From: Chitinophagaceae bacterium C216 | Lineage (GTDB): Bacteria; Bacteroidota; Bacteroidia; Chitinophagales; Chitinophagaceae | Direction: 5' to 3' | Assembly: GCA_028485475.2 (NCBI GenBank) | Contig: CP144143.1 | Span: forward strand, 186,001-250,000 | DNA length: 64,000 nucleotides | Shown: positions 37,541 through 46,585 of the stretch, piece by piece | How positions within the stretch are numbered: position 1 is the stretch's first letter | Layout: each line of letters begins with the position of its first letter | Translations under genes and position numbers: made by a program | The notes under the pieces: generated by a model | What the model was told of the DNA's origin: nothing | Database searches by the model: none | What the model saw: only the letters and a program-made list of their open reading frames with translations

Positions 37541-39022
37541 TTACCCGCCCTTGGCTTTCCATATTCCTGTATTACCTTTCTCCCACAATTTCGTCAAACG
37601 TTCTACAATTTCGGGGTGTTCTGCTGCCATATTCTTTCTTTCAAAAGGGTCGCTGTCATAATCGAATAATTCAACTGCCGGTGTTTCGGTTCTGAAATAT
37701 TTGGTGAGTCTGTATCGTTCCGTACGCATACTAATGCCGCGCCTAAAATAACTGTACGCCACATTTTCCCAATTTTTATCCTTAAGATTCTTTAATAACG
37801 GAATTAAGCTTCGACCATCAGATTGATGTTTTACTTTAACATCGCACAACTCCGTTAATGTAGGATAAATATCTACGCTGCTTACAATCTTCTTACAAGA
37901 ATAGGCTTTTGTAACACTTGGTACTTTGATGATTAACGGGCTTCTTAAGGACCATTCCGATAGTGTATGTTTTCCCCATACTCTTTGGTCGCCTAGATGC
38001 CAGCCATGATCCCCCCACACAATGACAATCGTGTTTTCTTCAAGATGCAATTTTTTCAGAGCATCTAGTACTTTACCTATCTGAGCATCTACATAGCTAA
38101 CCCCAGCTAAATAAGCATGTCGGAGTTTTCGCGCATAGGCATCGGATACAGCTTGCCGGAGCGATGCCTTTTCTTCGCCTTTCTTATACCCATTAAACTC
38201 TGCACTGTTGTGCAGGCTTGCCTCATTCACGCCCTCAGGAATATCGGAAAACGGTGCAAGAGGTATTTGCTCTTCTTCATAAAGATCCCAATATTTTTTA
38301 GGGGCATTGAACGGAAGATGCGGTTTAAAAAAGCCCACGGCCAAAAAGAATGGCTGATTGCGGCTGGCAAGCTCCTGCAGTTTTTGCACTGCCAATGCTG
38401 CGGTCAACCCATCAGGATATGCATCATCCGAAACATGGGCTGCTTCATAAGGTTTTACTTCACCATTTAGCGCATTTCTGTTTGTTCCATCAGTATACCC
38501 GAAAAATGCATTCCAGCCAGTACCCCATTTGCCAGCGTTAAACAACATTTCGTCCCAGCTTTGGGGCAGCTCCAGCCGATTGCTTTTGGGCTCCTGATAC
38601 TTATAAATATATCCATCTGGTGCATGGCTGATTTTTCCAATACCTACCGTGTAATAGCCGTTTAGCCTGAATGCATGCACAAAAGTTTCCGGGTTAAAAT
38701 CGGAGGGTACTCCTTTCAATTTGTGTTCCATCGCTTCGTTACTCAGGTCCTGCACAGTACGAGGTAATTTTCCGGTAAGTATGCTAGCTCTGGAAGCACC
38801 GCAAGTAGGCACAGTTACATAATGATTCATAAATACCACACCGCCCGAAGCTAGAGCATCGATATTGGGTGAATAAACGTATTTATTACCATAACAACCC
38901 AGCTCGGGACGCAGATCATCCACTGCTATAAATAATACGTTCCACTTGTTAGAAGAAGATTGGGCTGTAACTAAAAAAGTAGACCAGATTCCTAGAAAAA
39001 ACAGTATTCCTCTCTTTATCAT
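37541..39022 (-). CDS. Secreted Cys-type sulfatase (iduronate-2-sulfatase-like)
   Basis: The protein has 493 residues from the ATG at 39022 (signal MIKRGILFFLGIW, cleavage near VTAQ); an upstream start would put extra residues before the signal peptide. The catalytic motif TCGASRASILTGK has the Cys that is matured to formylglycine. Metal ligands are in NVLFIAVDDLRPELGC and IVIVWGDHGWHLGDQ. Such enzymes remove sulfate esters from glycans. The overall pattern, such as WGDHGWHLGDQRVWGKHTLSEWSLRSPLI, is that of iduronate-2-sulfatase-like S1 sulfatases. It stands alone between tRNA-Pro and the TSUP gene. Confidence 0.93.
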   Translation of the reverse strand: MIKRGILFFLGIWSTFLVTAQSSSNKWNVLFIAVDDLRPELGCYGNKYVYSPNIDALASGGVVFMNHYVTVPTCGASRASILTGKLPRTVQDLSNEAMEHKLKGVPSDFNPETFVHAFRLNGYYTVGIGKISHAPDGYIYKYQEPKSNRLELPQSWDEMLFNAGKWGTGWNAFFGYTDGTNRNALNGEVKPYEAAHVSDDAYPDGLTAALAVQKLQELASRNQPFFLAVGFFKPHLPFNAPKKYWDLYEEEQIPLAPFSDIPEGVNEASLHNSAEFNGYKKGEEKASLRQAVSDAYARKLRHAYLAGVSYVDAQIGKVLDALKKLHLEENTIVIVWGDHGWHLGDQRVWGKHTLSEWSLRSPLIIKVPSVTKAYSCKKIVSSVDIYPTLTELCDVKVKHQSDGRSLIPLLKNLKDKNWENVAYSYFRRGISMRTERYRLTKYFRTETPAVELFDYDSDPFERKNMAAEHPEIVERLTKLWEKGNTGIWKAKGG

Positions 39023-39097
39023 GCAAATCTTTATTGTGGCGAGCAATGTAAACGCATTAAAATTAAGACATCATTTGCGAACCAATGGTTTAATTGA

Positions 39098-39141: not shown

Positions 39142-39170
39142 CGAATATTTTTAATCGTTGTGTGTATTTT

Positions 39171-40481
39171 ATGAGTGAAGTTTTATCAAAATTTGATAGT
39201 GGCACGGAGGTAGTAACAAAGGGTTTTCCTGTGTTTCTCAAAACAGATGAGATGGATGTGCTCATTGTAGGAGCTCGAGATAGAGAGGTAGTACTACTAA
39301 AAACTTTATTAAAAAATTTACCCCAAGCTACTATAAGAATTCAGGCTGAAAAAATAGACGAATCGATACGACAGCTCGAAAGCGAGTTTGATTATGTAAC
39401 TGTAGAAGAAAGACCCTATGAAAAAAAGGATTTGGAAAATGCCAATTTGGTTATTATTGCGGGGAATCAGCAACAATTGATGCAACGTATACAGCTGGAT
39501 GCCTCCCAACTGGGATTAACCGATGTGCATATTCTGCAAGGAGATGCCCCTATGAATATTTTTGCAAATGGCGGCGTGCCGCTCAATGGAAATACAAAAC
39601 GTAAAAAGCTTTCCTATAAAAAAATTGCTTCCTACGCATTGGGTGTTTTTGCTTTAATGCTCATTGGTCATATTATTTTTTCTTTCTGGCCCTTTGATGC
39701 AATTAAGCAACAGCTAGTAACACTTTACGACTCGCTGGGAAGCTCCTTCTTGATCATGCTGGCTGCAGGATTTGCTGCACAGCTGGTGGATGGAGCGCTG
39801 GGTATGGGTTATGGTGTAACCAGCGCCACTATATTATTGTCTGCCGGTGTAAACCCTGCTGCTATTAGTGGTAGTATACATACTGCTGAAATGTTCGCTA
39901 GTGGTGCATCGGGTTACAGCCACTACAAATTCGGCAATGTCAACAAAAAATTGTTTAAAACATTACTGATTCCTGGGGTAATTGGTGCTATTGGTGGTGC
40001 AATATTGTTAGTATGGCTAGGAGAACAATATAGTGACTGGGTACGTCCTCTATTGGCTTGCTACACGCTTTTCCTAGGAATAAAGATTTTATACAACGCT
40101 TTCAAAAAGCAAATTAGAAAAAAGAAATTCAAACATTACAGACTATTAGCCGGTGCCGGGGGGTTCTTTGATTCATTCGGTGGAGGTGGATGGGGGCCTA
40201 TCGTTACTACTACATTAATAACCAAAGGCCGTAGCCCCAGATACGTAATAGGCTCTGTAAGTATTACCGAGTTCTTTGTTACCCTATCCAGCGCCTTTAC
40301 ATTTTTTATATTGCTAGGTGTAAGTCACTGGCAAACCATACTGGGTCTGATTTTAGGTGGACTGATAGCAGCTCCGATAGCAGCTAAACTCGCCGGTAGA
40401 CTTCCCAGAAAAACAGCATTCATATTAGTAGGTGTATTAGTAATTATTTGGAGCATTCGAATATTGATAAAGCTTTTATAA
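39171..40481 (+). CDS. Siroheme-synthase-like domain fused to TSUP (TauE/SafE) membrane transporter
   Basis: The protein has 436 residues from the ATG at 39171 (MSEVLSKF). Residues about 15-145 look like the precorrin-2 dehydrogenase/ferrochelatase Rossmann domain of siroheme synthase (GFPVFLKTDEMDVLIVGARDREVVLLKTLL, ANLVIIAGNQQQL). The dinucleotide loop reads GARDRE instead of the usual Gly-rich GGGxVA, so the domain may not be catalytic. Residues about 160-435 form an eight-helix TSUP permease (AAQLVDGALGMGYGVTSATILLSAGVNPAAIS, GGFFDSFGGGGWGPIVTTTLI). TSUP proteins move sulfite, sulfonates or sulfur species, so a link to sulfite reduction is likely. It is monocistronic with its own operator and terminator. 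Confidence 0.85.
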   Translation: MSEVLSKFDSGTEVVTKGFPVFLKTDEMDVLIVGARDREVVLLKTLLKNLPQATIRIQAEKIDESIRQLESEFDYVTVEERPYEKKDLENANLVIIAGNQQQLMQRIQLDASQLGLTDVHILQGDAPMNIFANGGVPLNGNTKRKKLSYKKIASYALGVFALMLIGHIIFSFWPFDAIKQQLVTLYDSLGSSFLIMLAAGFAAQLVDGALGMGYGVTSATILLSAGVNPAAISGSIHTAEMFASGASGYSHYKFGNVNKKLFKTLLIPGVIGAIGGAILLVWLGEQYSDWVRPLLACYTLFLGIKILYNAFKKQIRKKKFKHYRLLAGAGGFFDSFGGGGWGPIVTTTLITKGRSPRYVIGSVSITEFFVTLSSAFTFFILLGVSHWQTILGLILGGLIAAPIAAKLAGRLPRKTAFILVGVLVIIWSIRILIKLL

Positions 40482-40510: not shown

Positions 40511-40540
40511 AAAAAGCTCACTATTTACAGTGAGCTTTTT
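40511..40540 (+). terminator. Intrinsic terminator of the TSUP gene
   Basis: AAAAAGCTCACT pairs exactly with AGTGAGCTTTTT around ATTTAC, with a T tract, 30 bp past the stop. Confidence 0.9.
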
Positions 40541-40561
40541 GCTTTAAAAAAAATTTTACAA

Positions 40562-40609
40562 TTTATTAGTCTACTCATTTGGTAGACTAATAAATACTTT
40601 ATATGTTTG
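40562..40609 (+). promoter_or_regulatory. PhyH operon promoter with perfect palindromic operator
   Basis: A perfect inverted repeat with 13-bp arms (TTTATTAGTCTAC/GTAGACTAATAAA, loop TCATTTG; 40562-40594) covers the -33 box TTG (40579-40581). After 20 nt comes TATGTTTG (40602-40609), an exact TAnnTTTG. The operator position implies repression or tightly placed activation. It is related to the site at 39098. Confidence 0.72.
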
Positions 40610-40625
40610 CATCAGAATATAACCT

Positions 40626-40706
40626 ATGAGGCATTCTGCAACATATTACTTCTACATTTCCGACATGTGTTGTTGCATACACATACCTGTCATGTGTTGC
40701 CGCTAG
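40626..40706 (+). CDS. Cys-rich leader peptide (putative attenuator uORF)
   Basis: An ATG 17 nt after the -7 box opens a 26-codon frame ending in TAG at 40704-40706. The peptide begins MRHSATYYFYISD and ends MCCCIHIPVMCCR: five of its last thirteen residues are Cys in two clusters. Downstream, ATTGCT/AGCAAT (40712-40732) forms a hairpin. An alternative pairing of TTGC (40697-40700) and TAGC (40704-40707) with GCAA (40728-40731) and GCTA (40722-40725) would exclude it. Ribosome stalling on Cys codons when Cys-tRNA is scarce could therefore control the dioxygenase gene starting at 40778. Cys-rich leader ORFs are known upstream of sulfur genes in mycobacteria; the role here is inferred. Confidence 0.6.
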   Translation: MRHSATYYFYISDMCCCIHIPVMCCR

Positions 40707-40777
40707 CTTACATTGCTTTTCGCTATAGCAATACCGGATACTCTTTACATTTCTTCACCACTAAATACTGTAATCAC

Positions 40778-41644
40778 ATGAGCACACCCACACAGCAATT
40801 TCACTTCAATGGTCAGATAACATCTTTACATATTGAACATTTGAAACAATATGGCATTATCCACTTTAAACAATTTATATCTTATCATACCGTAAAAGAG
40901 TTTTTGTACGAAATCTATCAAGTGGAGCAGCATTTATTAAACAAAGGCATTCAACAAGTCAATGGCATTCCTTTAAAGTTTGGTTATAATGTGGATGGCG
41001 CTCCGCTTATTCAACGCATAGCCTTTGCTTCGTTGTTCAGCAGTACACTCAGTAATTTTTTGAAAAGTGATCAGGTGCAGGAATTGACTAAATTACTCAC
41101 GCCTTACGAAGGACGCATAGGAGAATTGGAAAAAGATGGGCTAGTAGTAAATCACTATCTGAATACCAGTGACAGTTCCTTTACAAGACTGGGCTGGCAT
41201 ACGGATAGTCCCAGAGATCTTTTTCTAGGATCAAGAATCAAGCCCATGCTGAATGTAGGACTACATTTAGACGATTGCCCTCAAAGCAACGGAGGGTTAA
41301 GAGTATTGCCCGGTACCCATAATAAAGGATTTTTCACCCTTTTCTTTAAGAAGAAATATTTCATCGATCACGAGCCCGATCAAAATGAAGTGGGATTGGA
41401 TATTCAGGCCGGAGATCTTACCATACACGACGGACGTTTATGGCATCGTGTGCAGCAATCTCCTTATATCGGAGAAAAAAGTAGACGTCGTGTGATGTAT
41501 ATACCGGTAATAACGGGCGCTTATCAGCCCAAAACAGCCGATAGCAAAACACCGCTATATCACAGACTGGCTTCGCTGGTATTTAAAAAACAAGCAAAGA
41601 AAAAAGTGCCGCAATACGAACCGCAGTTAAATCCAACAATATGA
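40778..41644 (+). CDS. Phytanoyl-CoA dioxygenase (PhyH)-family Fe(II)/2-oxoglutarate oxygenase
   Basis: The protein has 288 residues from the ATG at 40778 (MSTPTQQFHF); the frame is open upstream but that part overlaps the leader peptide in another frame and resembles nothing. The iron-binding facial triad is HTD in LGWHTDSPRD and the distal His in DGRLWHRVQQS, with the 2-oxoglutarate Arg in KSRRRVMYIP. Family members hydroxylate varied small molecules. The promoter carries the palindrome shared with the TSUP gene and the leader encodes a Cys-rich peptide, so a role in organosulfur use is inferred; the substrate is unknown. The SDR gene follows 61 bp downstream. Confidence 0.88.
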   Translation: MSTPTQQFHFNGQITSLHIEHLKQYGIIHFKQFISYHTVKEFLYEIYQVEQHLLNKGIQQVNGIPLKFGYNVDGAPLIQRIAFASLFSSTLSNFLKSDQVQELTKLLTPYEGRIGELEKDGLVVNHYLNTSDSSFTRLGWHTDSPRDLFLGSRIKPMLNVGLHLDDCPQSNGGLRVLPGTHNKGFFTLFFKKKYFIDHEPDQNEVGLDIQAGDLTIHDGRLWHRVQQSPYIGEKSRRRVMYIPVITGAYQPKTADSKTPLYHRLASLVFKKQAKKKVPQYEPQLNPTI

Positions 41645-41705: not shown

Positions 41706-42527
41706 ATGTCATACGCACTTGTTACAGGCGCAGCAAAAGGTATAGGCGCAGCAATAGCCATAGAGTTGGCAAAACTCAAAAAAGGGCTTATTCTAGTAGA
41801 TGTGGATGAAAGATCCTTACACGAAGTAGCTCAATACATTCAAGATAAATACTATGTAGACGTGTTTCCTATAGTACAGGATCTATCACAACCGGATGCC
41901 GCACAGCAAATTTTTGAAAAAACAAAATGGTATCATCTGTATTTGAATATTGTAGTCAACAATGCAGGCTTCGGCTTAAATACTCCTTTTACCGAAGGCT
42001 CATTAGACGATCAGCTGAATATCATTGATGTAAATGTAAAAGCGCAATTACGCATTGTTCATACTTTCGTTCCTGTTTTAAAACGATTCTCAGAATCGTA
42101 TCTGCTGAATGTAGGAAGTACTACCTGTTATCAATCCGTGCCCTATTTATCAGTATATGCAGCGTCGAAAGCGTTCGTGCGCTCCTTTACGCGCAGCTTG
42201 AGATATGAATTAAAAGACAGCACTGTATCGGTTAGCTGTCTGATACCAGGTCCTACCGATACCGCTTTCGTAGAAAGAGCAGGCATGAAAACACATACTT
42301 TAAAAACCGCAGCAAAGTTTAATATGACACCGCAAGAAGTAGCACAAGTGGCCGTTAAAGGATTGTTTAAAGGTAAGGCCGAAATCGTTCCAGGCTTTAT
42401 CAATAAGCTCAATGCGGTCGTTACAAAATTTGTGCCTCCGCGTATTGTAGAGCATGTAGCGGCACAGATCTACAAACCCCGACCCGGAGAGCAGGAAGAT
42501 AAAAAAGCAGTAGCACTACAATACTAA
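41706..42527 (+). CDS. Short-chain dehydrogenase/reductase
   Basis: A classical SDR of 273 residues with the cofactor loop TGAAKGIG, NNAG, the catalytic Ser in NVGSTTC and YAASK, and the family PGPTDT. It uses NAD(P) to oxidise or reduce a carbonyl or alcohol group. The C-terminal 40 residues (PPRIVEHVAAQIYKPRPG) carry a basic, partly hydrophobic tail. It probably forms an operon with the PhyH-type oxygenase, whose product it may process, and tRNA-Cys lies 26 bp after its stop. Confidence 0.9.
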   Translation: MSYALVTGAAKGIGAAIAIELAKLKKGLILVDVDERSLHEVAQYIQDKYYVDVFPIVQDLSQPDAAQQIFEKTKWYHLYLNIVVNNAGFGLNTPFTEGSLDDQLNIIDVNVKAQLRIVHTFVPVLKRFSESYLLNVGSTTCYQSVPYLSVYAASKAFVRSFTRSLRYELKDSTVSVSCLIPGPTDTAFVERAGMKTHTLKTAAKFNMTPQEVAQVAVKGLFKGKAEIVPGFINKLNAVVTKFVPPRIVEHVAAQIYKPRPGEQEDKKAVALQY

Positions 42528-42553: not shown

Positions 42554-42624
42554 AGCCACGTGGCCGAGTGGATAGGCAGAGGTCTGCAAAACCTACTACG
42601 AAGGTTCGAATCCTTCCGTGGCGT
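42554..42624 (+). tRNA. tRNA-Cys (anticodon GCA) with two stem mismatches
   Basis: A 71-nt cloverleaf: acceptor AGCCACG/CGTGGCG, D arm GCC-GAGTGGATA-GGC, anticodon loop CTGCAAA (GCA at 42586-42588), T arm GAAGG-TTCGAAT-CCTTC and discriminator T73, the Cys identity base. A1 faces G72 and G27 faces A43, where a G-C and a G-T or Watson-Crick pair would be expected. CCA is not encoded. It is either functional with weak ends or a decaying copy. Confidence 0.85.
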
Positions 42625-42943
42625 CAACGAAATTAAATATTGTATTGTACTCCGTATAGTTTTACATCGCAACTACCATAAAGGGAGGATTGGCAACATA
42701 TCAGAGATAATCAATTATTGGTCGTTTCCCCTCATTACGATTAAGCTTTTCTACAAACAAGCACTCACCACCATTAAATCCTCCCTTTTTCCTCACACTA
42801 TTTATACGAAACAATTCAAAACATACACCAGTTTCTATAATTCATTTGCTCAAAATGATACCCGCAGCATTCATTCATAACACATTATTATTTATAACAC
42901 CTGCGGTGCATTAGTGCAATTAGGAGTAGATAATATATGCAAT
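42625..42943. other. Non-coding stretch between tRNA-Cys and the susD remnant
   Basis: About 320 bp show no gene that I can recognise in any frame. They may be eroded sequence of the susD remnant to the right. The inverted repeat CCGCAG/CTGCGG near 42863-42907 is weak. Confidence 0.4.
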
Positions 42944-43353
42944 TTGAAATTCAAGGTAGATTTAATCGCTACTGTAGCTAATAGAGGAAACGATTGGCCT
43001 GTTATTAGACATGCTGATATAATCCTCGCATCTGCAGAAGCACTAATCAAACACTACGATCCTAATGCAACAAGTATTAACTTAGTAAATGAAGTGAGGG
43101 CAAAAGCAGGTATTACATCTTTACAGCTATCTGCATGCCGAGTGCAGAATCGTAGCGCCATGCGATATTTCAAGAAAGAGTGTGGGAGCTTCATGCAGAA
43201 GAAATGCATCGGCAGGATCTAATAATAAAAGGTACTTTTATCGGTGAAGCTCGACAAAGAGGACATAATGCTCAACATTATCAGGTTCTTTTCCCGATTC
43301 CACAAGAAGAAATAGATAAAAATCCAAATCTTAAACAAAATGATGGATATTAA
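42944..43353 (+). pseudogene. Degraded SusD/RagB gene, C-terminal remnant
   Basis: Frame one reads NRGNDWPVIRHADIILASAEALI then LVNEVRAKAGITSLQ, the SusD C-terminal block. The matching frame then shifts near 43133 and continues after an in-frame TAG (43153-43155) as RHAIFQERVWELHAEEMHRQ and finally VLFPIPQEEIDKNPNLKQ before TAA at 43351. The last segment is the typical SusD ending. Only about 135 codons remain, and no susC or susD N-terminus is present upstream. The stop overlaps the start of the next sulfatase gene, so the sulfatases were once translationally coupled to a susCD pair now lost. Confidence 0.85.
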
Positions 43354-44899
43354 CTTAACATCGAAACACGTGTATGGCAGACTATTATTGATTGCCTCAA
43401 TACTTCTATTGACAATCGTGTCGCGTGCGCAATCTCCTAATGCACCCAATATTATTGTTTTTATTGTGGACGATATGGGGTGGCTCGACACTTCGGTTCC
43501 TTTTGCGGGAAGTGTTACAGCTAATAACAAGAAGTATCATACTCCCAATATGGAACGACTGGCTAAAGAGGGGATGATCTTTACCGACGCCTATGCAGCA
43601 CCGGTTTGTACCCCCTCGCGTGTAAGCTTGATGACAGGCATGAATGTTGCCCACCATCATGTAACCAACTGGACACATCCTCTTAAGAACACTGTCGCCG
43701 ATGCCAAAAATCCTCCCTACGATTATGCCGACTGGAACATTAATGGCTTTAGTCCCATAGCTGGCATAGAAAAAACAGTTCATGCTACGGCATTACCTCA
43801 GTTATTAAAAGCCGCCGGATACTTTACGATTCACGTAGGAAAAGCTCACTGGGGTGCACAAGGTACTCCCGGAGCGAATCCATATAATCTTGGATTTATT
43901 GTAAATGTAGCAGGACATGCGGCAGGTCATCCGCAGAGCTATCTTTCCGAAGACAACTATGGAAATATACCTGGCTCAAAAGTAGCTGCACAAGCAGTTC
44001 CGGACTTAGAAGAATATTATCAAACCGGTACATTCCTTACAGAAGCACTTACACGAGAAGCTTTAAAAAGTCTGGAGTACCCCGTTGCCAAAAAACAACC
44101 GTTCTTTCTTCATTTCGCTCATTATGCAGTACACACACCACTTATGGCAGACGTTCGGTACTTTCAAAAGTATTTAGACCGTGGATTAGACTCCGCCGAG
44201 GCAAAATACGCATCGCTTATCGAAGGAATGGATAAAAGTCTGGGCGATGTTATAGATTTTATCGAGCAAAAAGGAATTAAGAACAATACCGTAATCTTTT
44301 TCCTATCCGATAACGGTGGTCTGTCTTTACCTCCAAGAGGCGATAAACCTTTAACGCACAACGCCCCTTTAAAAGCAGGAAAAGGATCAGTGTATGAAGG
44401 AGGTATTAGAATCCCGTTTATTGTAAGCTATCCGAAGCTTGTCAAAAAAGGTCAGGTATCCCATACCCCCATAATCATAGAAGATCTTTTCCCTACATTG
44501 CTTGATATTACAGGCATGAAAAATTACAAGACTATTCAAAAAATCGACGGCAGATCTTTAGTTCCACAATTGAAAGAACCCTCTCTTGCGGATACGTCTA
44601 GAATTCTATTATGGCATTATCCCAATTATTGGAGACCGAGCAATTTTCCAGGCACCAATTATCACAGTGCCCTACGCCAGCATAATTGGAAATTAGTTTA
44701 TAACCAACAGACTAGAAATGCAGAATTATATGACCTTTCGACGGATATTGGCGAGCAGAAAGACCTCTCGACCATTTATCCTCATAAAACAAAAGAACTG
44801 GTAGCTCTATTGGGCAAATTGTTGAAAGCTTATAATGCACCAATGCCTAAAGATAAAGTTTCGGGTAAACCCCTTCCTTATCCGGCAGATGCTGAATAA
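43340..44899 (+). CDS. Secreted Cys-type sulfatase
   Basis: A 519-residue sulfatase with a signal peptide (about 1-31, ending VSRAQ; the start may be 43340 or the next codon, 43343). The formylglycine motif is VCTPSRVSLMTGM; metal ligands are in IIVFIVDDMGWLD and NTVIFFLSDNGGLS. The pattern, including AGKGSVYEGGIRIPFI and LRQHNWKLVYN, is that of arylsulfatase A-like S1 sulfatases acting on glycan sulfate esters. Its start overlaps the tail of the susD remnant, and a second sulfatase follows 51 bp downstream. A sulfatase-maturing enzyme is required and is not in the window. Confidence 0.93.
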   Translation: MMDINLTSKHVYGRLLLIASILLLTIVSRAQSPNAPNIIVFIVDDMGWLDTSVPFAGSVTANNKKYHTPNMERLAKEGMIFTDAYAAPVCTPSRVSLMTGMNVAHHHVTNWTHPLKNTVADAKNPPYDYADWNINGFSPIAGIEKTVHATALPQLLKAAGYFTIHVGKAHWGAQGTPGANPYNLGFIVNVAGHAAGHPQSYLSEDNYGNIPGSKVAAQAVPDLEEYYQTGTFLTEALTREALKSLEYPVAKKQPFFLHFAHYAVHTPLMADVRYFQKYLDRGLDSAEAKYASLIEGMDKSLGDVIDFIEQKGIKNNTVIFFLSDNGGLSLPPRGDKPLTHNAPLKAGKGSVYEGGIRIPFIVSYPKLVKKGQVSHTPIIIEDLFPTLLDITGMKNYKTIQKIDGRSLVPQLKEPSLADTSRILLWHYPNYWRPSNFPGTNYHSALRQHNWKLVYNQQTRNAELYDLSTDIGEQKDLSTIYPHKTKELVALLGKLLKAYNAPMPKDKVSGKPLPYPADAE

Positions 44900-44950: not shown

Positions 44951-46585
44951 ATGAAAAAAATAAAATTACTTTTACTTGGCTTGTTCATAGGTACAGCCAT
45001 TATCAATGCACAACATCAACAACATCCCAATATTATTCTCATCTTTTCTGATGATCATGCGTATCAAGCTATAAGCGCATACGGCAACAACCTGGTACAA
45101 ACACCTCATATCGATCGCATCGCAAAAGAAGGAGCACTACTGGAAAACAATTTTGTAACTAACTCTATTTGTGGCCCCAGCCGTGCTACATTGCTTACAG
45201 GAAAATATAGTCATAAAAATGGTTATTACGATAATGGCGGGACGCCAATCAATACTGCACAGCTCGTATTTCCTCAACTGTTGCAACAAAACGGATATCA
45301 AACTGCATGGATTGGCAAAATGCATTTGAACGCGTTACCTAAAGGCTTCAACTATCTGAACGTATTAGCCAGTGCGGGAGGACAAGGACATTATTTTAAT
45401 CCAACATTTGTAAACATCAATAATGATACTTCGGCATACAAAGGCTATGTTACCAACCTCATCACCGATTTCTTCTTTGAATGGATGGAGCAGCGCGATC
45501 CCAACAAACCTTTTTTTGCTGTAATTGGGGAAAAAGCTACGCATAGGTCATGGCTGCCAGACTTACCCGACTTAGGAGCATATGACGCTATTGATTTTCC
45601 GCTTCCCGACGACTTTTTTGACAATTATGAAAGTAGACCTGCGGCCCAACAACAAGACATGACTATTGATAAAACAATGCGACTTAAAGAAGATCTGAAA
45701 ATCGGTCAGATCTTCGGCATTAACCGAAATACAGACTTAAATGAAATTCGTAAACGCTTAAAAGAATATTATCCCAACAAAAAATTTACCGATAAAGAGT
45801 TGCGAAACTTTGCCCGCAATAGCGACTACAGCTCACTAGATGCAGAGCAAGCAGCAGCTTACCAAAAGTATTACGGAGAGATCACCAAAAAATTCGAGGC
45901 TCAAAAATTAAATGGTAAAGATCTTGCTAAATGGAAGTTTCAACGTTATCTCAAAGACTATTATGCAACAGCTCGCTCCATGGATCGGAATATCGGAAGA
46001 ATTTTGAGCTATCTGGACAGCACCGGTCTTAGCAAAAACACAGTAGTTATCTACGCATCCGACCAGGGTTTTTATTTGGGTGAACATGGTTGGTTCGATA
46101 AAAGATTTATTTATGATCAGTCTTTAAAAACTGCTTTTGTAATCCGTTATCCCGGTGTTATTAAACCCGGCACACGCATTAAAGAATTTGTTTCCAATGT
46201 AGACTGGGCTCCTACTCTTCTCGATATCGCAGGAATTAAAACCCCTTCCGAAATGCAGGGAGCCTCCTTTCTTCCTATACTAAAACAACAAACACCTCAC
46301 AACTGGAAGAAAGACATTTATTACCACTATTACGAATATCCACAGCCGCATCACGTATCACCTCATCTTGGCATAAGAACGAAGGATTATCTGTTAATAC
46401 GATTCTATAAAGGAGTAGAAGGATGGGAGTTTTTTGATCTGAAGAAAGATCCAAAGCAACTGCACAATGTTTATAACCAGAAAGAATACGCACCCATTAT
46501 CGCTCAGTTAAAATCCAGACTAAAAGAGCTCATCATACATTATGACGATAAAGAGGCTCTAGACATTTTCAACACACCCATCTAA
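44951..46585 (+). CDS. Secreted Cys-type sulfatase
   Basis: A 544-residue protein with a signal peptide (1-20, ending INAQ). The formylglycine motif is SICGPSRATLLTGKYSHKNG, with metal ligands in IILIFSDDHAYQAIS and VVIYASDQGFYLGEHGWFDKR. It contains a long insert (about residues 215-320) before the second metal site. The YASDQGFYLGEHGWFDKRF pattern is typical of S1 sulfatases resembling N-acetylglucosamine-6-sulfatase and related enzymes; the substrate is inferred only at that level. It forms an operon with the preceding sulfatase and ends at a terminator shared with the convergent SufE-like gene. Confidence 0.93.
   Translation: MKKIKLLLLGLFIGTAIINAQHQQHPNIILIFSDDHAYQAISAYGNNLVQTPHIDRIAKEGALLENNFVTNSICGPSRATLLTGKYSHKNGYYDNGGTPINTAQLVFPQLLQQNGYQTAWIGKMHLNALPKGFNYLNVLASAGGQGHYFNPTFVNINNDTSAYKGYVTNLITDFFFEWMEQRDPNKPFFAVIGEKATHRSWLPDLPDLGAYDAIDFPLPDDFFDNYESRPAAQQQDMTIDKTMRLKEDLKIGQIFGINRNTDLNEIRKRLKEYYPNKKFTDKELRNFARNSDYSSLDAEQAAAYQKYYGEITKKFEAQKLNGKDLAKWKFQRYLKDYYATARSMDRNIGRILSYLDSTGLSKNTVVIYASDQGFYLGEHGWFDKRFIYDQSLKTAFVIRYPGVIKPGTRIKEFVSNVDWAPTLLDIAGIKTPSEMQGASFLPILKQQTPHNWKKDIYYHYYEYPQPHHVSPHLGIRTKDYLLIRFYKGVEGWEFFDLKKDPKQLHNVYNQKEYAPIIAQLKSRLKELIIHYDDKEALDIFNTPI

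Follow-up and report, generated by a model that had tools for sequence, protein, structure and literature searches.

What is the function of a 26-codon open reading frame, rich in cysteine codons, that stands immediately upstream of a putative dioxygenase gene in a member of the Bacteroidota? The question is raised by a 64,000-nucleotide stretch (hereafter the window) of the genome of Chitinophagaceae bacterium C216, a single contig of 3.34 Mb. On the forward strand of the window the ORF MRHSATYYFYISDMCCCIHIPVMCCR runs from an ATG at 40626 to a TAG at 40704-40706, as read from the sequence and as indicated by conservation of its Cys cluster in relatives. It contains five Cys codons in two clusters, MCCC and MCCR, exactly as the initial annotation had described: TGT TGT TGC at 40668-40676 (codons 15-17) and TGT TGC at 40695-40700 (codons 24-25), the latter one codon short of the stop. 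The promoter element that had been noted ahead of the ORF is likewise in place, the candidate -7 element TATGTTTG lying on the same strand at 40602-40609 with 16 bases between it and the ATG. We propose that the ORF at 40626-40706 encodes a cysteine-sensing leader peptide, a mechanism that, taken as a whole, we regard as about 75% probable, and that the family to which it belongs probably switches sulfur-related genes on at cysteine shortage.

The presence of a Cys-cluster ORF before PhyH-type dioxygenase genes is real and beyond chance. A search with the single PhyH protein, before alignment, confirmed no relative; an alignment of 15 PhyH proteins led to at least 585 named loci, of which the best 80 were analyzed. 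Under a fixed rule, an ATG-started Cys-cluster ORF lies upstream of PhyH in 34 of these best 80 of at least 585 loci, whereas shuffled PhyH upstream regions gave a mean of 0.80 and a maximum of 3 in 40 rounds, and 1.4 in a second set of ten. Several leaders depend on a GTG or TTG start, and with such starts allowed the leader is found in 40 of the best 80 (shuffled mean 2.33, maximum 5). A wider list, to which L170, L183, L188 and L198 were added by hand and from which L204 was removed, gives 41 of the best 80, the strict count remaining 34. Other genes of the PhyH loci have a Cys ORF in 7 of 338 cases; the Fisher p of ~4e-21 for 34/80 versus 7/338 should not be read literally, the rows being related species. 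The enrichment is also specific to the residue, Cys scoring 34 against ~1 in shuffles and the other 19 residues falling near or below their shuffles. The claim that the Cys-codon leader is conserved before the PhyH-type gene is thereby borne out, and the outcome that the annotation had named as counting against it, an ORF or Cys codons found nowhere in relatives, is contradicted by the 34 of 80 loci and by leaders before sulfur genes as well.

Among the best 80 loci, leaders are present at every locus of Niabella (4/4), Chitinophaga (16/16), Niastella (4/4), Larkinella (2/2) and Siphonobacter (2/2), at the one locus each of Puia, Pseudoflavitalea, Paraflavitalea, Terrimonas and Foetidibacter, and at 2 of 7 Spirosoma loci. 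They thus span two NCBI classes, Niabella belonging to Chitinophagia and Larkinella to Cytophagia. In the same set, no leader was found in Arcicella (0/4), in Flectobacillus or Aquirufa (0/1 each), or at the single loci of Flavitalea, Ferruginibacter, Fibrella and Flaviaesturariibacter. Because 39-46 of the best 80 PhyH relatives, the number depending on the rule, have no Cys leader, PhyH does not need one. One record titled Williamsia, an actinobacterial name, has at L180 a Cys leader ahead of PhyH in a locus that resembles those of Bacteroidota, and may be mislabeled.

Upstream of the leader, a palindrome that we regard as a candidate operator, TAGTCTACTCATTTGGTAGACTA, occupies 40567-40589, with perfect arms extending over ~40561-40595. 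Within it, on the forward strand at 40578-40581, stands TTTG, a candidate -33 element 20 nt upstream of the -7 element; TTTG ~20 nt before TATGTTTG is what we take to be the layout of the Bacteroidota -33/-7 promoter consensus. The window contains a single copy of the palindrome (0.00 expected); when two mismatches at most are allowed, 42 of 149 genomes of relatives have it, the reversed control giving 3 matches in all. Two further copies lie in the window's genome. The copy at 1,076,440 stands between a second siroheme-TauE gene and a TonB receptor gene downstream, with MSSFQHASNRLYPMNRKHEWRCCMCS after it; the copy at 2,776,132 stands ahead of a SusC-like gene, and the MKVNPIVLFNCMHGHLMMRRCPA that comes next contains two isolated Cys but no cluster. 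The latter region (L009, G000:C1:2776132) has a long 5' region before the SusC-like gene with apparently complementary blocks, GGTTTCC ... GGAAACC.

The operator scan covered 88 boxes in 80 regions (L041-L120), with L147-L152 left out. Because TAnnTTTG stands 11-14 nt behind the box in 27 of 88 boxes, versus 5 of 3520 random places, the box often overlaps the -33 element; in Chitinophaga it instead lies just after TATATTTG (L166, L172), with similar box-leader spacing in 15 loci of that genus. Either position, over the -33 element or just after TATATTTG, would fit repressor binding. At L175, L191 and L194 there is no leader, and the box immediately precedes PhyH, its first base 33-46 nt upstream. 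The Larkinella leaders, which end in CCCCCCR, have no close box match (6 and 9 mismatches), so leader and operator can part. In Spirosoma, another palindrome lies near the PhyH start in L201, L202, L212 and L219 (ACTATACTTATTCTGTATAGTA in L201 and L202) and is perhaps a local form of the operator. In several TonB-receptor loci, namely L079 (from 4001) and also L074, L086, L093 and L107, a further box or half box separates the Cys leader from the receptor gene, so that operator-like sites lie on both sides of the leader.

The genes nearest the boxes, on either side and in any direction, fall mainly into a TonB/SusC cluster (37 members, including short ORFs of ~105 aa), siroheme-TauE genes (19) and PhyH (13). 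Present in small numbers are genes for a PAPS reductase, a CysD-like protein, a CysM-type synthase, a Cys/Met PLP enzyme, a sulfatase-modifying (FGE) protein, peroxiredoxins and an Rrf2 regulator, and many further neighbors are unrelated singletons. An ATG-started ORF with three Cys in 3-4 residues begins at most 120 nt from the box, on either side, at 23 of 88 boxes, the same test giving 69 of 5280 at random positions of the same loci; with GTG and TTG starts the figures are 31 of 88 and 132 of 5280. Leu came second in this test, at 15 of 88, a figure without a control of its own. Counted by side, 112 box sides face a same-direction gene within 700 nt and 32 of these have a leader: 13 of 13 for PhyH, 3 of 3 for PAPS reductase (two loci, one with two boxes), 2 of 2 for the CysM-type synthase, whose genes both lie 470-540 nt behind the leader, 12 of 37 for the TonB cluster (none at the other 25), and two singleton genes, one AhpC/TSA-like. 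No leader was found at the box sides of siroheme-TauE (0/3), peroxiredoxin (0/3), FGE (0/3), CysD-like (0/1) or Rrf2 (0/1) genes. By genome, a PhyH relative at E <= 1e-20 is present in 22 of 89, a box lies within 450 nt of it in 13, and all 13 carry a Cys leader; in G049 the box and leader lie further upstream, with a small ORF between. The box at 4000 in L080 and L096, on one side of which lie the Cys leader and the CysM-type synthase, has a divergent sulfatase-modifying-factor-like gene on its other side.

Cys leaders also precede cysH genes in some genomes. A survey of cysH/cysD in the phylum, in which PF01507 was found in 68 of 118 genomes, covered 50 loci, or 49 distinct places, since L262 and L282 are the same place. 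Three genomes of the f30 family, outside the window's class, have a Cys leader 72-98 nt before a PAPS-reductase-family gene (cysH), ending in SLCCCC (from a TTG start), RMTCCC and RMTCCC; the fourth f30 genome, G154, gave no PF01507 match. G049, which belongs to the window's own family, carries MLYLHFKLIKCCCSCLE 48 nt upstream of a gene of the PAPS-reductase family. The majority of the 49 places have no Cys leader. Short Cys ORFs before some gene were seen at L237, L262/L282, L263, L264, L269, L272, L273, L275 and L280; among the cysH/cysD Cys ORFs we regard those in the three genomes of f30 and in L280 as convincing and the others as distant, weak or chance-like. The window genome's own cysH/cysD region showed neither box nor leader within locus L260. 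The expectation that such leaders would also be found upstream of sulfur genes is thus supported for PAPS reductase/cysH and the CysM-type synthase, partly behind the shared palindrome.

How might the leader act on the gene behind it? The initial annotation had pointed out that no long T tract follows the leader, and no terminator-like site was found after it in the window, where the sole site listed by the scan is the palindrome; among 42 loci that were folded, few hairpins appeared and none scored as a clear terminator. The annotation had also proposed two mutually exclusive pairings. Both exist as sequence, and as a switch they find no support: folding in the window is no better than in shuffles (z of -0.70 for 40664-40777, -0.44 for 40694-40777 and +0.01 for the stretch with the ATTGCT/AGCAAT hairpin), and by eye no counterpart of ATTGCT/AGCAAT was seen in the intervals of Niabella L153, L154, L155 and L159, so we reject this switch. 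A trp-type attenuator was likewise rejected, with no U-run terminator hairpin or antiterminator and with z near zero in the window. The fallback offered in the annotation, control by Rho or at translation initiation, fits better than the pairings, the forward-strand interval of 71 nt between leader and gene (40707-40777) being C-rich, G-poor and without a terminator, and hence a candidate Rho loading region. Across 42 PhyH leaders the intervals average C 0.289 and G 0.123, a C/G of 2.35; the ratio is 1.11 for 86 other 5' regions from the same loci and 1.34 upstream of PhyH genes that have no leader. In 22 further leaders, mostly non-PhyH, the bias is weaker (C/G 1.58). The C-rich, G-poor composition by which Rho-dependent attenuation is recognized, with C exceeding G, is found after all 42 PhyH leaders and 18 of the 22 further ones.

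Because the interval is C-rich, G-poor and without a terminator, we favor Rho-dependent attenuation. Transcription would start shortly after 40609, at a predicted start site, with a putative repressor on the palindrome gating the promoter, and the leading ribosome would follow RNA polymerase closely as it translates the 26-codon ORF. With ample charged tRNA-Cys, the ribosome would reach the TAG at 40704 and leave, exposing C-rich, G-poor RNA on which Rho could load, so that transcription would end short of the dioxygenase gene. With too little charged tRNA-Cys, the ribosome would stall on the Cys codons beside the stop and cover the Rho-loading RNA; with the Rho site shielded, the polymerase would continue into the PhyH, SDR and tRNA-Cys genes. 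We favor such a shield by a stalled ribosome because C exceeds G at the proven attenuation site of CruR, Rho has been suggested for actinobacterial leaders and Rho is encoded in the window's genome. Given that the rest of the model holds, we regard Rho as the termination step at even odds.

Related systems have been described outside the phylum. Leaders with runs of Cys codons have been reported from Mycobacterium, P. acnes and B. longum, with Rho suggested in 2005 (Seliverstov et al. 2005, PMC1262725), and those of M. smegmatis are Cys-dependent attenuators (Canestrari et al. 2020, PMC8764745, as described in PMC9031893; cited in PMC13236596, PMC9094748). In the accessible text of the first of these reports, the actinobacterial leaders resemble the present ones in being short ORFs with a Cys run near the stop, sulfur or Cys genes downstream and no terminator (PMC1262725); both marks of that type, consecutive Cys codons near the stop before a Cys or sulfur gene and the lack of an intrinsic terminator, are found here. 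However, the actinobacterial leaders, as far as that text extends, are leaderless and belong to mycobacteria and their kin, whereas here, in another phylum, the start codon lies 16 nt behind the -7 element, a distance that bears on the leaderless-mRNA criterion and is measured from a candidate promoter and a predicted start. Moreover, unlike those leaders, the present ones target PhyH-SDR-tRNA-Cys and TonB receptors, with a shared palindromic operator, and their Cys response is predicted. The uORFC-8-2 motif before cysS in Rhodobacterales, proposed to act by ribosome-mediated attenuation, shares the tandem Cys codons in a short upstream ORF but, in the available account, has intrinsic-terminator stems with a U run and precedes cysS only, neither of which applies here (PMC8632094). 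For the Bacteroidota, the parts of two reports available to us mention, in F. psychrophilum, amino-acid operons under leader-peptide attenuation (PMC9723704) and, in B. thetaiotaomicron, sORFs that resemble leaders (PMC7366714), with no Cys case in either. The remark in the annotation that it knew of no Cys-rich leader described for Bacteroidota agrees with the literature searched, in which none was found, most subscription journals lying outside its coverage. As far as we found, Cys-codon attenuation is so far on record in Actinobacteria and Rhodobacterales; its presence at many Bacteroidota loci, which belong to more than one class and in part share an operator, would add a further major phylum to those with ribosome-based Cys sensing.

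Could the same ribosome-stalling Cys sensing have RNA rearrangement or translation initiation, not Rho, as its output? Across 16 Chitinophaga loci, the stop is followed by a 4-bp hairpin whose loop is C-rich, and the start codon lies inside another 4-bp stem; the paired fraction of cells is 96.1%, which 0 of 500 shuffles equalled, and the first hairpin shows G-C to A-U at one pair in three sequences. A complement of the Cys run lies within the interval in 10 of 42 loci (shuffles: mean 2.78, maximum 6), and these hairpins and complements leave room for control of initiation; moreover, structure may matter in some loci, because 8 of 42 leader loci fold with z below -2. However, the window has nothing comparable (z -0.70 to +0.31, the upper value for leader end, interval and gene start), the mean z over the 42 loci for these same folds is only -0.70, and L157 of Chitinophaga is missing the first hairpin, all of which makes this output improbable. 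Another reading keeps the peptide and changes the signal: the Cys clusters would bind a metal or thiol-reactive signal as a nascent peptide, in the manner of CruR of Bordetella, a copper-responsive uORF with a CXXC motif and a C>G bubble at proven Rho attenuation (PMC9426467). The two share a uORF, a C>G bubble, Rho-dependent attenuation (proposed here) and, for many of our leaders, a TonB receptor downstream. Yet the copper-sensing CruR, as the accessible text has it, is a DUF2946 protein carrying both a CXXC and a RAPP motif (PMC9426467), whereas the present peptides have 8-60 aa and end in Cys runs. Read from its sequence, the 26-codon peptide of the window has neither motif, and we rejected a CruR-type copper uORF for it. 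Also against a metal signal, the linked genes include PAPS reductase, CysM-type synthase and tRNA-Cys genes, and by eye the PhyH leader peptides have no recurring fixed spacing or second motif. The Cys run is at the very end of the peptide, and such a terminal run lies largely within the ribosome tunnel once the ribosome stops. We therefore regard a signal other than Cys supply as distinctly unlikely.

Two readings would do without the peptide altogether, and on these the codons themselves bear. Peptide bodies vary among relatives and the Cys run beside the stop persists: of 42 leaders, 31 have their last Cys codon right next to the stop, 6 have it one codon away, 2 three and 3 five. Pairwise alignment within 11 groups (19 comparisons) shows Cys retained at 63 of 67 aligned Cys codons, of which 57 are identical and 6 synonymous, compared with 279 of 426 other codons (Fisher p ~2e-7, the pairs sharing members). 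The bias toward synonymous change that the annotation had suggested looking for points the right way, with 6 of 10 Cys-codon changes synonymous versus 68 of 215, in a sample too small to press. These same 6 of 10, together with the preponderance of TGT over TGC in leaders (117 versus 37) and the TGT-only runs of most Chitinophaga leaders, could be taken to mean that the TGTTGTTGT run is a nucleic-acid element, bound by protein or RNA, in which the reading frame is incidental. That is highly unlikely, since Leu, the TTG frame, falls below shuffles (7 versus 14.8) and Val reaches 4 versus 1.8, set against 34 versus ~1 for Cys, and since Cys is kept without a simple repeat in MCCC...MCCR, RCCSCRC and CYCCTCTCC. 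Broken clusters such as that of the window speak for selection of the residue rather than of a TGT repeat. A chance ORF in an AT-rich upstream region is scarcely credible: Cys ORFs do occur in the background, at the few other genes and random places counted above, but recurrence before PhyH orthologues and behind a common palindrome speaks against chance. An ATG often directly precedes the Cys run (at 40665-40667 in the window and in the leaders of L123, L153, L154, L155, L201 and L202), and a minimal M-Cys-stop ORF could therefore also be translated.

The transcription unit behind the leader would comprise, all on the forward strand, the PhyH-type Fe/2-oxoglutarate dioxygenase gene (40778-41644; PF05721, 6.1e-14, with a fold match to the superfamily), a short-chain dehydrogenase/reductase (SDR) gene (41706-42527; PF00106, 2.4e-40) and a tRNA-Cys (GCA) at 42554-42625, 26 nt 3' of the SDR stop. 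Upstream of the leader unit is a siroheme-type/TauE fusion gene (39162-40481; TauE 2.3e-37, the siroheme-synthase-like N terminus below cut-off), from which the unit is likely separated by a forward-strand inverted repeat with a T run at 40512-40539, 3' of that gene; this likely terminator was read by eye only and is absent from the list of the terminator scan. Sulfatase-like genes flank the unit at 37541-39046 (by Pfam) and at 43340-44899 and 44951-46585 (by eye), and the only known RNA families in the window at gathering scores are two tRNAs. A tRNA-Cys on the same strand as PhyH is present in 7 of 11 Niabella PhyH regions, the window counted, 14, 15, 16, 17, 20, 26 and 65 nt downstream of the long ORF that precedes it. 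This ORF is the SDR gene in the window and, judged by its position, in the other Niabella loci as well. The tRNA-Cys is absent from the other four Niabella regions (L067, L075, L097, L101) and from four other PhyH regions tested (L041, L050, L053, L059), and a second tRNA-Cys lies elsewhere in the window's genome. These distances suggest that tRNA-Cys is cotranscribed with PhyH-SDR in Niabella. If this is true, then feedback through tRNA supply becomes testable in this operon. The downstream tRNA-Cys, the palindrome over the -33 element and the other loci are additions beyond the initial annotation.

Neither sequence nor fold comparison revealed a specific function for PhyH, and its protein gave no NCBIfam match. 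Its nearest relatives by sequence are MysH, phytanoyl-CoA dioxygenase, SptF and EctD and by fold EvdO1, TlxIJ and other Fe/2OG enzymes, with 12-22% identity among the matches listed; the structure model has a mean pLDDT of 78.4 and is weak at 135-153. The PhyH-SDR pair is independent of the leader, because the leaderless L132, L135, L136 and L140 retain, by eye, an SDR-like start behind PhyH. We would count PhyH, with the SDR, as a sulfur gene on its regulation only. Its position in a Cys-leader operon suggests, speculatively, a role in sulfur release or sparing, and would be the first physiological lead for a conserved pair without a known role. Likewise speculatively, a cysteate-synthase-like gene, at 459.5 bits versus a cut-off of 600, makes sulfonolipid a candidate substrate link that is suggestive only.

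The repressor of the palindrome is perhaps an Rrf2-family protein. In L065 an Rrf2 gene lies 59 nt from the box, with a peroxiredoxin gene 34 nt from it on the other side, and its product matches, among others, the CymR and IscR models, all below equivalog cut-offs. An Rrf2 gene of the window's genome (L289 ~1498-1902, G000:C1:1056111), whose product is 64% identical to that of L065, lies ~10 kb from cysH/cysD and has a degenerate box only (7 mismatches). This would be reminiscent of the CymR-type Rrf2 sulfur regulators, the likeness being a palindromic site before sulfur genes and an Rrf2 gene beside one box; the differences are that equivalog cut-offs are missed here and that operator binding by Rrf2 is predicted only. 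A tentative and, taken as a whole, somewhat unlikely extension is that a two-check circuit is widespread in Bacteroidota, in which an Rrf2-type repressor reading one sulfur signal would act at the promoter and Cys-run leaders reading charged tRNA-Cys would act in elongation, the output in Niabella including tRNA-Cys and a PhyH-SDR pair that frees or spares the sulfur of sulfonolipids or other organosulfonates. In practical terms, a short ORF ending in a Cys run offers a simple marker for mapping sulfur-responsive genes in Bacteroidota. In the Niabella genomes G002 and G012 (L138, L142, L144-L146), PhyH is split or has in-frame stops, and the box and Cys leader are intact.
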